Below, piece by piece: positions 19,465 to 24,222 of a DNA stretch of 46,595 nt. How positions within the stretch are numbered: the stretch's first letter is position 1; each line of letters starts with the position of its first letter. The stretch spans positions 1 to 46,595 of the forward strand of contig PKXZ01000016.1 in the NCBI GenBank assembly GCA_003132525.1. Reading direction: 5' to 3'. The notes beneath the pieces are model-generated. The model was not told the origin of the DNA. It worked only from the letters and a program-made list of their open reading frames with translations, and ran no database searches. Made by a program: the position numbers and the translations under genes. The DNA is from Candidatus Dormiibacterota bacterium (lineage in GTDB: Bacteria; Chloroflexota; Dormibacteria; Aeolococcales; Aeolococcaceae).

Positions 19465-21447
19465 TCACGATCCCGGCGTGATCGTCACGTACGTCGCGAT
19501 CGCAATCCCGGTCGTGGTGGTGGCGAGGATGTCGTAGCGCGTCGCGCCCGGAGGCACGGTGGCGTCCGCGACAAAATGTCCGATCGGATCGAGCCTGCGG
19601 CTGACAAGGATCGTCGGAGTCCCGCCTGGGGGCGTCATCCCGATGGTCACCGACGCGATGTGGATCTCGCTCGTCTCGTTCGAGTTCGTGAAGAACGTGA
19701 CGTGAAACTCGTCCGCACCCGCCTTGTCAGGGTCGAGATAGACCTGAGCAAGCCAGCCGGCTTGCAGCTGGATCGAGTAGAGCGTCGGCAGGCCGGCGAA
19801 TCGTGCCGCCGTCACATACGGCGCCGGGGTGATCGTGGTCAGCTGCAGGTGCACCTCTGTGGAGCTGTCTGCGTTTTCGATGATCGCGGCGACCTCCCAG
19901 ATGCCGGCGACCGCGAGGTTGCCTCCACGAGCGGCAAACGTGCCGCTGGGCTGGCGCTTGAGCGTGAGCGTCGATTCGCCGAGCTGGGGTCTGAGCGGTT
20001 GCGTGAATTCGAGCTGGATGGAGCTGGCGTGCACGATCGCGCCGCTGTCGTAGTTGGTGACGCGGAGCGTGAATTCGTTGAAGCCCGCAGAGCCGGGCGA
20101 CACGGTGAGACGCACTTTGACCGTGGTGGCGAAGTCGCTGCCGGTCACCACGAGCTGGCTGGCTCGCACCGCGGCCGTGGACTGCGTCGACGCTAAGGGC
20201 GGCGCAACATTCACAAGAGTCGCTGCGACCAGCACCACGGCGATTCCGATGACGACTTCGGTGGACCCGGCTCTGCGCAGGCCGCGTAAGACCGTCGACG
20301 CGTGCGGCACATTGCCGTAGCGATTGACGGCCCCAAGCCCGGCAAGCACGACGAACAGCGCCACTTTGACGAGCACGAGAATCCCGAAGGCACTTCCGAA
20401 GAGCTGTCCAATCGAGCCGATCTCGATGACCGCGCGAAAGGTGCCGGTCAACGCGACGATCACGATCGCAATCCCGGCCGTTGTCGAGAAGCGGCGGACT
20501 GCGGCGCCCTTGACCTCGGACGGCGCACCGCGCACGGCGAGGATGAGCACAAGGAGTCCGCCGAGCCACACGCCGCCGGCGACGATGTGTGCCCACTGGA
20601 TCAGGAGGTTGACGGCCACCGGCGCCTGGGCGCCCGCATGGCTCGACGCAACGTCCACCCACATGGACGCTGCTGCACCGATCCCCGCCACCAGTACGCC
20701 GAGGCGCGACAGGCCACCGGCAAGGAACCAGGCGACCGCGATCGCGATGCCTGTCGCAACGATCGCGATGATGCGCTCGATCGCGGTCATCCCAAGTGAG
20801 GTCGCGAACAGTGCGCTGAACGTGATGCCCGCCGCCTCGCGCTGCGCCTCGATGATGCCGGCGACACCAAGGGCGGCGATCACCCATGCCGCCACGAGCA
20901 TGCGCTTCGTGAAACCGGGCACCGCACGCAACGCGATCAAGCACGTTGACGCGACCCCGACGATCGCCATCAAACCGATGAAGAACAGCCATCGCGCAAC
21001 GACCGCGAGGATCGATGGCGGCGGTGACACCACGGACTTTGCGGCGTGAGCGTTGGCGCTCGTGGCCGATTCACCGACGCCAAAGGCGTACGCGCCGGTT
21101 GCCAGGTGGCCGTCAATCTCGGACACCGTCTTCCACGTCACCGTGTACACACCGTTGCCGATGGGCTTGAGCGGCACCTCGAGCTCGAGGGGCAGACCGG
21201 GGACGGCCACCGTTGGGCCGGCGTCGACGCTGACCCCGGAGCTGTTGACGACCGTGATGCTGGACAGACGGGGGTCCGGTGGCTCTCCGAACGTGATCTC
21301 CACGACCTTCGGCGCCGTCTGCACCTCCGCACCCTCGGGTGGAACGGCGCTCTGCGGGAGCGCGTGTGCGGCCACCGTCAACGGCAGTCCGATCGCTGCC
21401 CCGACAGCCAGCGTGAGCGCGACGGCGAATGCCGGCCTGGCGCGCAT
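19465..21447 (-). CDS. Copper resistance protein, CopC-CopD-YtkA fusion
   Basis: This 660-residue protein has a signal peptide ending PLTVAA, so the mature chain starts HALPQSAVPPEGAEV with the N-terminal His that binds copper in CopC. The CopC domain runs to about residue 125 and includes the conserved SEIDGHLATGAYAFGV. About eight helices of CopD follow (roughly 140-420), then an extracytoplasmic YtkA/FixH-like domain (about 440-550) and a last beta-rich part. CopC-CopD fusions move copper across the membrane for import or enzyme metalation. It follows the anchored protein at 21451 by three bases and lies opposite an SCO-like gene, all pointing to copper delivery to a respiratory oxidase. 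Confidence 0.9.
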   Translation of the reverse strand: MRARPAFAVALTLAVGAAIGLPLTVAAHALPQSAVPPEGAEVQTAPKVVEITFGEPPDPRLSSITVVNSSGVSVDAGPTVAVPGLPLELEVPLKPIGNGVYTVTWKTVSEIDGHLATGAYAFGVGESATSANAHAAKSVVSPPPSILAVVARWLFFIGLMAIVGVASTCLIALRAVPGFTKRMLVAAWVIAALGVAGIIEAQREAAGITFSALFATSLGMTAIERIIAIVATGIAIAVAWFLAGGLSRLGVLVAGIGAAASMWVDVASSHAGAQAPVAVNLLIQWAHIVAGGVWLGGLLVLILAVRGAPSEVKGAAVRRFSTTAGIAIVIVALTGTFRAVIEIGSIGQLFGSAFGILVLVKVALFVVLAGLGAVNRYGNVPHASTVLRGLRRAGSTEVVIGIAVVLVAATLVNVAPPLASTQSTAAVRASQLVVTGSDFATTVKVRLTVSPGSAGFNEFTLRVTNYDSGAIVHASSIQLEFTQPLRPQLGESTLTLKRQPSGTFAARGGNLAVAGIWEVAAIIENADSSTEVHLQLTTITPAPYVTAARFAGLPTLYSIQLQAGWLAQVYLDPDKAGADEFHVTFFTNSNETSEIHIASVTIGMTPPGGTPTILVSRRLDPIGHFVADATVPPGATRYDILATTTTGIAIATYVTITPGS

Positions 21448-21450
21448 GCG

Positions 21451-22179
21451 CTACGTGCTCCGGCGGCGCAACCCGATCGCCAGATTGACCGCGCTCAGCA
21501 ACACCGCAACCACGATCGCGACGATCGCGAGAACGATTGCAAGCGACTCGCGGGACTTGGCGTTGCTTGCGGCTGTGGCGGCGGATTGCGCGCTCGCGAG
21601 CGCAGTTTCCGCGCGCTGATTCACGGCATCGACCTTGGTCGCGATGGCAGCGACCGCGGGCACCGCAACGGGAAACTCGACAGCGCTGGAATCAGCGACC
21701 GAATCGAACGTCGCCGGCCCTGACGTCACCGTCTTATCGATCGGTGTCCCGTTGATGCTGCCGAAGATGTGGAAGGTATACGCGCCTACCACAGTTGGGA
21801 TCAACGCGTAGTCGTACTCGTCGAGCCGGCCGTTGCCGGTGTCGGAATCGTACGCGGGTGCCGGGCAGAACGGGCTGCTCGTCGTGGTCCCGACAGTTAC
21901 CGTGACCTGGAAGTCGGGATGTGTGCAATCCTGGTTGAGGGTGCTCACCGGCGTGCCTTTCGGATTGTTCGCCGAGGCGATGTCGATGAACACCTGGATC
22001 GCGTTCTCTTCGCCGACGAACGTGTCGGTGCCGGATGCCGGCTCGCTCTGCCATCCGATGGCAACCCGATATTCACCGGCCGTGAAAACGTAGTGCGCTG
22101 ATGCGACGGCGACGGACGTCGCCAGTGCCATGAGCATGCCCGCGACGACGGCGCATGCACGAAGGCTGAGCTTCCACAC
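21451..22179 (-). CDS. Secreted, membrane-anchored copper-module protein with predicted N-terminal His
   Basis: GTG 22179 with GGAG at good spacing; 242 residues. The signal peptide ends VAVASA, an A-x-A site, so the mature protein would begin HYVFTAGEYRVAIGW. A beta-rich ectodomain follows, with one Cys pair (QDCTHPD, SPFCPAP) and a YTFHIFGSINGTPID strand. Then come a helical Ala-rich stalk (AETALASAQSAATAAS) and a C-terminal transmembrane helix ending RRRST. From memory, similar unnamed proteins occur beside CopC/CopD in other high-GC bacteria. The free N-terminal His and the operon suggest copper binding; that is inference. Confidence 0.8.
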   Translation of the reverse strand: MWKLSLRACAVVAGMLMALATSVAVASAHYVFTAGEYRVAIGWQSEPASGTDTFVGEENAIQVFIDIASANNPKGTPVSTLNQDCTHPDFQVTVTVGTTTSSPFCPAPAYDSDTGNGRLDEYDYALIPTVVGAYTFHIFGSINGTPIDKTVTSGPATFDSVADSSAVEFPVAVPAVAAIATKVDAVNQRAETALASAQSAATAASNAKSRESLAIVLAIVAIVVAVLLSAVNLAIGLRRRST

Positions 22180-22235: not shown

Positions 22236-22922
22236 TCAGACAGCGAGAAGCGGCGGCGGTGGCCTTCGCCAGAGGTGCCGTCCAATCCGCTCGAGGGGCG
22301 AGACTGAGCGGGCTACCGGCAAACGGAGGACAGCGGCGGCGGTGCGGCAGCGCCCGACGATGGCTCGCAGCAGTGCCTCGACGCGTTCGACTACCACCTC
22401 GCGCCGGTGCAGCAGCACCTGGCAGATGCGGACGATACCGGCGAGCAGCAGCGATACATAGAGGTGCACGAGCGGCGCCGCCCAGTGGACCCCGGTGATC
22501 GCACCGAGCCCCGGCGCGCGCTGGGACGTCGCAAGCGCTTCGACGTTCTCCTGGACAACGTACAGGGTGATCTGCGCCGCCGCCAATGGCAGCCAGATCG
22601 CGAGCAGCCGCGTTCCCGGATTCGACCGTATGGGTCGCGCGGCGGGGGCATGCGCCGAGCGCCCGCGCCAGATGCGACGCACACCTGCGCCGGCCCGGTC
22701 GAGGCGGTCGTTCAGCGCCTGCCATGCCCGCGCCAGGCGGAAGGCGAAGACGGCACTCAGCACCAGGAGCACTGCGGCGACGGGGAGCATGTACACGTGC
22801 GCCGGATTGGTCATCGACGCAACGACACCGGCGGATCCCCACACCCTGAGGTACTCGAGCGTATGGCCGATAAAGAGCCCAACGAGCGCCAGAAGCACGC
22901 TGCCTGGCGCGGCAAACCGCAT
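22236..22922 (-). CDS. Polytopic membrane protein of the copper module, unknown function
   Basis: I place the start at ATG 22922, giving about 228 residues; GTG 22940 and ATG 22997 are alternatives. Four hydrophobic segments are visible: VLLALVGLFIGHTLEYL, VYMLPVAAVLLVLSAVFAF, IWLPLAAAQITLYVVQENVE and WAAPLVHLYVSLLLAGIVRI. His residues lie within or next to three of them (GHTLEY, HVYML, VHLY). The C terminus is basic and ends PPPPLLAV. It is the promoter-proximal gene of the operon with the anchored protein and CopCD, and is divergent from the SCO-like gene. Membrane His residues would suit metal or heme binding, but no family is recognised. Confidence 0.65.
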   Translation of the reverse strand: MRFAAPGSVLLALVGLFIGHTLEYLRVWGSAGVVASMTNPAHVYMLPVAAVLLVLSAVFAFRLARAWQALNDRLDRAGAGVRRIWRGRSAHAPAARPIRSNPGTRLLAIWLPLAAAQITLYVVQENVEALATSQRAPGLGAITGVHWAAPLVHLYVSLLLAGIVRICQVLLHRREVVVERVEALLRAIVGRCRTAAAVLRLPVARSVSPLERIGRHLWRRPPPPLLAV

Positions 22923-23074
22923 ACGCCGGTTGGGGATCACGCGGGGAGCATACGCTCGCCAACCACGCAGGTCCCAGGCGCGGGTCGGGCGAGGCATAAT
23001 TGGCGCCGCGCTGGCCGCGACCCTCGCTGGCGGGAGGATCAGACCGTCAAACCGGGCGCGAACGAGGTCTGTGG

Positions 23075-23731
23075 ATGAAACCATCGGGGAGCCTCGGAGG
23101 GATCACTCGGTCCAAGCGCGGGCAGGCGCTGATCGTGGTGCTGGCACTCGCGGGCGGCCTCGGCATCGGCGCTCTGATGTCGGTCGCGATGCATCAGCGG
23201 GCATCGACAACCGCAGCCCAGGTAAGCCTCACGCCTTCGTCGAACGTGATCGGCGCCCCGCTGACGCGCCAGACGACTCCCCCTCTGACCGGGCTCGTCG
23301 ACCAGAACGGCCAGACAGTTTCGCTTGCGGATGAGAAGGGCCATGTGGTCCTCCTGGCGTTCATGGACCCGCTCTGCGTCAACCTCTGCCCGATCCTCGG
23401 TCGTGACATCGTCGCCGTCGAGCAGGCGCTCCCCAAGACGATCAAGCCGGTCCTGCTGATCGTGAGCGTGATGCCCGACCGCACCGCCGCCGATGTGAAG
23501 GACTTCATCAAGACGAACCTCACGACCCAGTGGGATCCCGGCTGGCACTGGCTGCTCGGCCCCGACGCGTCCCTCAAGATCACGTGGCTGCAATGGGGGG
23601 AGCCGCTCGAGCCGCCAAAGACGAACTACCTCGATGTCATTGACCCGCAGGGATACGTGCGCGTCGTGTACCCCGCGCCGCTCTTCGTCAGTGACGTCGT
23701 CCACGCCATCACCGTGGTGTCGACCGAGTAG
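23075..23731 (+). CDS. SCO1/SenC-like thioredoxin-fold copper chaperone, atypical
   Basis: 218 residues from ATG 23075. One N-terminal membrane anchor (QALIVVLALAGGLGIGALM) is followed by a thioredoxin-fold domain with the SCO CxxxC motif in MDPLCVNLCPILG, then WHWLLGPDASLKITW and YLDVIDPQGYVRVVYP. SCO proteins deliver copper to the CuA site of cytochrome oxidase using two Cys and a His. Here the His of the usual DHS/DHT element appears replaced by Lys (PPKTNYLDVID), so it may act mainly as a thiol oxidoreductase or use another ligand. It is divergent from the copper operon. The longer ORF from 23000 is excluded. Confidence 0.85.
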   Translation: MKPSGSLGGITRSKRGQALIVVLALAGGLGIGALMSVAMHQRASTTAAQVSLTPSSNVIGAPLTRQTTPPLTGLVDQNGQTVSLADEKGHVVLLAFMDPLCVNLCPILGRDIVAVEQALPKTIKPVLLIVSVMPDRTAADVKDFIKTNLTTQWDPGWHWLLGPDASLKITWLQWGEPLEPPKTNYLDVIDPQGYVRVVYPAPLFVSDVVHAITVVSTE

Positions 23732-23742: not shown

Positions 23743-23805
23743 CCGAGACCGCAATCGCGAGGCGTGGTTGAGAAGAAGCCAGCTTTTGCGCTAAGGTCGC
23801 GGCTC

Positions 23806-24222
23806 ATGCCGACGTACAAGATGGGTCAGGCCGCGGAGCTGCTCGGCGTCAGCGTGGACACGGTTCGACGCTGGGCCGACGCCGGCCGCATCGAGACGCT
23901 TCGCACCGAGGGCAGACACCGCCTGCTTGACGGTGCCGCGCTCGCACGATTCGCTGTCGAGCTGGCGAGCAATCAGCCGGCCCTGCCGGTGACTGAGTCC
24001 GCACGCAATCACTTCCGAGGACTGGTCACGGATGTCACGACCGACGGGGTGATGGCCCACGTCAAGCTCCAGGCCGGACCATTCCGGATCAGCTCGCTGA
24101 TCAGTAGCGAGGCGGTCGCTGAGCTCGGGCTGGAGCCGGGCATGCTCGCGGTCGCCTCCGTCAAGGCCACAAACGTGGTCATCGAGATGCCTCCATCCTC
24201 AGACACACAGGCGAGGAAGTGA
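23806..24222 (+). CDS. MerR/excisionase-type HTH protein with molybdate-binding TOBE domain
   Basis: 138 residues from ATG 23806. Residues 1-50 are a winged helix of the excisionase/MerR kind (KMGQAAELLGVSVDTVRRWADAGRI, then EGRHRLLDGAALARF). Residues 65-132 are one Mop/TOBE module (SARNHFRGLVTDV, VKATNVVIEMP) of the type that binds molybdate or tungstate oxyanion in ModE and ModC. It overlaps modA by one base. It is therefore the likely molybdate-responsive regulator of the modABC operon and perhaps of the cox and Moco genes nearby, doing the job of ModE with a different DNA-binding domain. Confidence 0.88.
   Translation: MPTYKMGQAAELLGVSVDTVRRWADAGRIETLRTEGRHRLLDGAALARFAVELASNQPALPVTESARNHFRGLVTDVTTDGVMAHVKLQAGPFRISSLISSEAVAELGLEPGMLAVASVKATNVVIEMPPSSDTQARK

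Follow-up and report, generated by a model that had tools for sequence, protein, structure and literature searches.

The 242-residue protein that we followed in the window, the whole 46,595-nucleotide stretch of DNA analysed here, belongs to a family whose members almost all begin with histidine after predicted signal cleavage and are nearly always encoded beside copper genes of the CopC-CopD type. By analogy with YcnI of Bacillus, we consider it likely that this protein (hereafter the His1 protein, numbered from the mature N-terminus) is a functional equivalent of YcnI unrelated to it by sequence, with an extracellular Cu(II) site made of His1 and Glu18 and with exchange of Cu(II) with CopC. 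The family itself is best read as a new one, without a Pfam or NCBIfam model, of an already known kind of copper protein.

The gene and its product

The open reading frame described in the earlier note was found to be real, since its start, stop and ribosome site all fit, the sequence GAGGAG lying seven bases 5′ of the GTG start (Table 1). It is present as a single copy in the window genome. The layout of the product comprises a signal peptide, an Ig-like all-beta domain, an alanine-rich helical stalk, a C-terminal transmembrane helix and an RRRST tail. In an AlphaFold2 model built with 70 sequences (mean pLDDT 91.6), strands were formed by mature residues 2-6 and 9-15, with Glu18 following, and residues 148-212 formed one continuous helix. 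A C-terminal hydrophobic segment was present in 90 of 102 members, and together with the modelled helix it bears out the stalk and membrane anchor proposed earlier. The Cys pair that had also been pointed out does exist (mature C57 and C77) but is restricted to a close subset of the family.

The two cysteines lie, together with H59, in a clade-specific insertion reading DCTHPDF ... FCP. They occur together in 11 of the 102 members, all close relatives, always as a pair where the gene is intact, and they probably form a disulfide. A part for them in a metal site was ruled out on account of this limited distribution.

Table 1. Positions of the features discussed in the text, given in window coordinates
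Feature	Position	Strand	Remark
CopCD fusion: CopC domain (H1, E28, DGH motif), CopD membrane domain, C-terminal YtkA-like region	19465..21447	minus	
His1-protein gene, 242 aa	21451..22179	minus	GTG start at 22179, stop at 21451
His109 codon (YTFH)	21769..21771	minus	not conserved
Cys pair, within a clade-specific insertion	21865..21927	minus	mature C57, H59, C77
Glu18 codon (E46 of the precursor, GWQSEP motif)	22042..22044	minus	E in 102/102; sole other invariant candidate ligand
His1 codon (H29 of the precursor)	22093..22095	minus	H in 152/154
Signal peptide, predicted cleavage A28/H29	22096..22179	minus	-3/-1 rule holds across 154 relatives
4-helix (4-TM) membrane protein, upstream partner	22239..22922	minus	start codon uncertain; ORF opens at 23084
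Sco1/SenC-like gene, divergent	23069..23731	plus	Pfam SCO1-SenC 3.8e-05, barely above cut-off
MerR-type helix-turn-helix fused to Mop/TOBE domain	23764..24222	plus	

Searches of Pfam, NCBIfam and PDB sequences with the window protein returned no family or relative, only noise, and a RIFIN match was discarded as noise on the alanine-rich stalk; the plasmid collection gave no match. No description of the family was found in the literature searched, chiefly openly accessible papers, so that an earlier one may exist; a search for the CopC family together with Chloroflexi also found nothing.

Histidine at the mature N-terminus

Signal cleavage was predicted after ASA and before HYVFTAGEY, the mature protein opening with HYVFTAGEYRVAIGWQSEP directly after ASA. 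Relatives were pooled from 101 related genomes, 400 genomes of the phylum, a collection of 84,980 species and 60 extra regions picked mostly from weaker matches, and 154 distinct members with a covered N-terminus were compared. His at +1 was shared by 152 of them, which is far above chance when set against the 2.6% background of His at this position in signal-peptide proteins in general (PMC12537917). The remainder of the site was equally regular: a hydrophobic signal core was present in all 154, position -1 was Ala or Gly in 153, and position -3 was Ala, Val, Thr, Ile or Leu in 153. These results agree with the earlier proposal that an A-S-A site leaves His as residue 1, and the neighbouring CopC was likewise seen to be His-first (VAA, then HALPQ).

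The searches did not select for His1, as the pattern used on the 84,980 species lies in PTxxGxYTF and the other searches employed whole-protein profiles; the profile used for counting members does start at His1. As the residue is kept at such frequency against a low general background and at a median pairwise identity of 36% (first 102 members), we regard the N-terminal His as a defining feature of the family.

Operon and genome context

The CopCD gene starts 3 nt downstream of the His1-protein gene, and its product matched CopC (1.1e-17) and CopD (3.8e-17) in Pfam. In two other genomes (G050 and G240), the homologous C-terminal region of the partner CopCD matched Pfam YtkA; with this C-terminal YtkA-like domain, the partner has the CopC-CopD-YtkA architecture of YcnJ. 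The family was found in 108 of 400 sampled Chloroflexota genomes, about a quarter. CopC was present in 107 of these 108 compared with 113 of the 292 family-negative genomes (Fisher p 2e-33, uncorrected for phylogeny, so that kindred genomes count as if independent). Among 80 named loci, 66 have the start of a CopC domain no more than 600 nt downstream in the same orientation, and several of the 14 exceptions end at a contig edge. Across 131 other flanking ORFs scanned with Pfam, no further family turned up more than four times, and an Rfam search of the operon gave no match.

The earlier note had named CopCD and a His-rich membrane protein as operon partners. Both partners were confirmed, but "His-rich" is a loose description of the membrane protein: in its alignment His20, Glu125, Glu128 and a C-terminal R-x-P-P were invariant and His42 nearly so, making two conserved His beside two invariant Glu. 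Of the 80 loci of the family, 35 encode this 4-TM protein no farther than 5 kb away. It belongs to no Pfam or NCBIfam family and has no fold match in the PDB; a PDB profile match, TMH4C4, was discounted, as its name marks it as a designed protein of helices. The divergent Sco1/SenC-like gene also adjoins the operon in most loci of the same genus. Sco1/SenC proteins deliver copper to cytochrome oxidase, and the window genome encodes heme-copper oxidases.

Further along the plus strand, a MerR-type helix-turn-helix is joined in one protein to a Mop/TOBE domain, which binds molybdate. It is followed by modA-, modB- and modC-like ORFs, and the fusion reads as a compact molybdate-sensing regulator.

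The YtkA-like domain of the partner bears on how the His1 protein itself may work. YtkA-like proteins (PF13115), including the CopCD C-terminal domain, share with it an Ig-like fold and the pattern G-x-N...D-x-G-x-P-V, whereas the His1 protein has an extra N-terminal hairpin that carries His1. For the window protein no PF13115 match over the cut-off was found, but residues 18-110 weakly resembled the corresponding domain at the C-terminus of the partner CopCD (hhalign p 4.7e-4; the controls gave 0.13 for DUF1775 and 0.037 for CopC), and 8 of 70 family members gave weak Pfam YtkA matches. On this resemblance the protein might be a structural, YtkA-like partner of CopCD that holds no copper alone, His1 supplying a ligand only while the protein is briefly bound to Cu-loaded CopC; an N-terminal His on both partners would suit such a hand-over. 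We consider this unlikely, as a free N-terminal His chelates Cu(II) unaided. YcnI, the known protein in the same slot, moreover binds Cu(II) stably (PMC8424229).

Candidate ligands of the N-terminal site

Four positions were fully invariant in the first 102 members, namely His1, Gly14, Glu18 and Pro19, while Pro100, Thr101, Gly104, Tyr106, Phe108, Gly112, Phe130 and Pro142 were invariant or nearly so. Glu18, in the GWxxEP motif, was found in all relatives having His1. A tight hairpin between the modelled strands 2-6 and 9-15 would set His1 opposite Gly14/Trp15 and near Glu18. From the sequence conservation, Glu18 is a candidate for the Glu of a YcnI-type mono-histidine brace or for a second-sphere Glu of the CopC type, although its conservation could also be structural. 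Position 15 is Trp in 70 and Phe in 29 of the 102 members, so a YcnI-like Trp is not strict in the family.

Two distant paralogues (L183 and L184) were found to have neither His1 nor Glu18, and they do not adjoin CopC in the stretch fetched. Their two genomes, of one taxonomic family, also carry copies with both residues, and the joint loss is probably one evolutionary event. Such a co-loss is what one shared site would predict.

As a second ligand the earlier note had suggested the His of YTFHIFG (His109), with which His1 could form a bis-histidine brace that binds Cu(II) and is perhaps catalytic. His is the commonest residue at this position (68 of 102) and lies in core strand 107-114 of the model. 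However, Arg is found there in 27 of the 102 members, so that a His1/His109 brace is not a family rule, and Arg also occurs in three relatives from the genus or family of the window protein (L006, L007 and L008). No conserved second His, as in the LPMO-like bis-histidine brace, was present among the 102 aligned members, and no enzyme context was found that would go with catalysis. A bis-histidine brace therefore appears quite improbable. Binding of another metal (Ni, Zn or Fe) at the His1 site is very improbable, for although Ni is preferred by DUF4198, a different family with an N-terminal His (PMC12537917), the linkage seen here is specific to CopC/CopD and no recurrent Ni or Zn genes were present among the flanking ORFs scanned with Pfam.

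The idea of a copper protein with a free N-terminal His is thus strongly supported by the family conservation and the CopCD linkage, and the protein stands as a candidate of this kind, though His109 is not supported as the general second ligand. In the reading that we prefer, the YcnI-like one, export and signal cleavage would expose His1 of a membrane-anchored protein outside the cytoplasm, where its free amino group and side chain would hold Cu(II). Glu18, in the loop that follows the pairing partner of the N-terminal strand, would complete or tune the site in the manner of a mono-histidine brace. The protein may then exchange Cu(II) with CopC of the CopCD importer, the direction presumably being copper import.

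Comparison with known copper proteins

Structural searches with Foldseek returned generic Ig-like folds only, with no match below E 0.001. Of the structural matches listed, CrdA of H. pylori (PDB 9ll4), a secreted copper protein, had the highest target-normalised TM-score (0.65), but this match was weak (E 0.017, 9% identity), and CrdA relies on Met and contains no His (PMC9182242). The anglerases Ang-1/Ang-2, DUF4198 and DUF6702, the signal-strapping families, resemble the His1 protein in being secreted and in having a conserved N-terminal His, and Ang-1 combines a beta-sandwich fold with a mono-histidine brace (PMC12537917). The Ang domains are, however, fused to a HupE/UreJ permease, whereas the window protein has a single anchor helix and matches no Pfam family. 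CopC of the C0-1 type (PF04234) resembles the His1 protein in its N-terminal His, in an invariant Glu close to that end and in its copper locus; in P. fluorescens CopC, Glu27 helps deprotonate the N-terminus (cited in PMC9182242). The His1 protein nevertheless has no counterpart of the DGH motif that forms part of the Cu(II) site in CopC, and CopC is its neighbour gene. Homology to CopC was rejected for want of profile support, PF04234 giving no Pfam match in the window protein and hhalign a p of 0.12.

The closest parallel is YcnI (DUF1775, PF07987). In Bacillus YcnI, a mono-histidine brace binds Cu(II): the ligands are the N-terminal His, Glu50 and water, Trp137 lies close by, and a C-terminal helix anchors the protein (PMC8424229). 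In vitro, Cu(II) is exchanged between YcnI and the CopC domain of YcnJ, and cells that lose one or the other protein grow less well when copper is scarce; YcnI is only accessory in Bacillus, the effect of His27Ala being small (PMC12362106). YcnJ supports oxidase function (PMC13344008). YcnI of Bacillus subtilis and the His1 protein share a signal peptide, His1, a beta-sandwich, a C-terminal membrane helix and an operon with CopC-CopD-YtkA. Glu18 and Trp15, available near the N-terminus, could correspond to the Glu and Trp of the YcnI site. Their motifs differ, GWxxEP in the His1 family and VPxEK in YcnI. PF07987 gave no match in the window protein at E up to 1, and alignment of the two families with hhalign (p 0.018, probability 2.6%) revealed no profile similarity. 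Homology to DUF1775 was thus rejected, and the analogy to YcnI rests on context and site, not on descent. Since slot, anchoring and His1 are in common, the His1 protein most likely acts as YcnI does.

DUF1775 was found in only 10 of the 400 sampled genomes and in none of the window genome's proteins. In two genomes (G380 and G160), the order 4-TM protein, DUF1775, CopC places YcnI in the slot of the His1 family, and the 4-TM gene accordingly recurs upstream of both families in CopC operons. One contig (L188 1-8601, that is G380:C40:20900-29500) carries two parallel copper operons on opposite strands, with 4-TM/DUF1775/CopC on one and 4-TM/His1 family/CopCD on the other. In the DUF1775 proteins of two loci (L189 and L190), the position of the Glu ligand reads PHG and not PxE, and their copper site may for this reason differ from that of Bacillus YcnI.

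In our estimate the chances are roughly even that convergence is at work here: an anchored beta-sandwich bearing a His1/Glu copper site would have arisen in two families of unrelated sequence, each encoded between a conserved 4-TM membrane protein with His and Glu and a CopC-CopD importer. Chloroflexota would then use mostly the His1 family and others YcnI, and the 4-TM protein would be an overlooked component shared across bacterial copper import. Bacterial copper uptake is poorly known, and in the literature searched no anchored extracellular protein other than YcnI had been studied as the partner of a CopCD importer. The present analysis proposes a role for many proteins without a family name and draws attention to their uncharacterised 4-TM partner. 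If true, a second, unrelated family in the YcnI slot would suggest a general design in which one N-terminal-His protein hands Cu(II) to another, for which the His1 family and YcnI would provide a clean comparative test.
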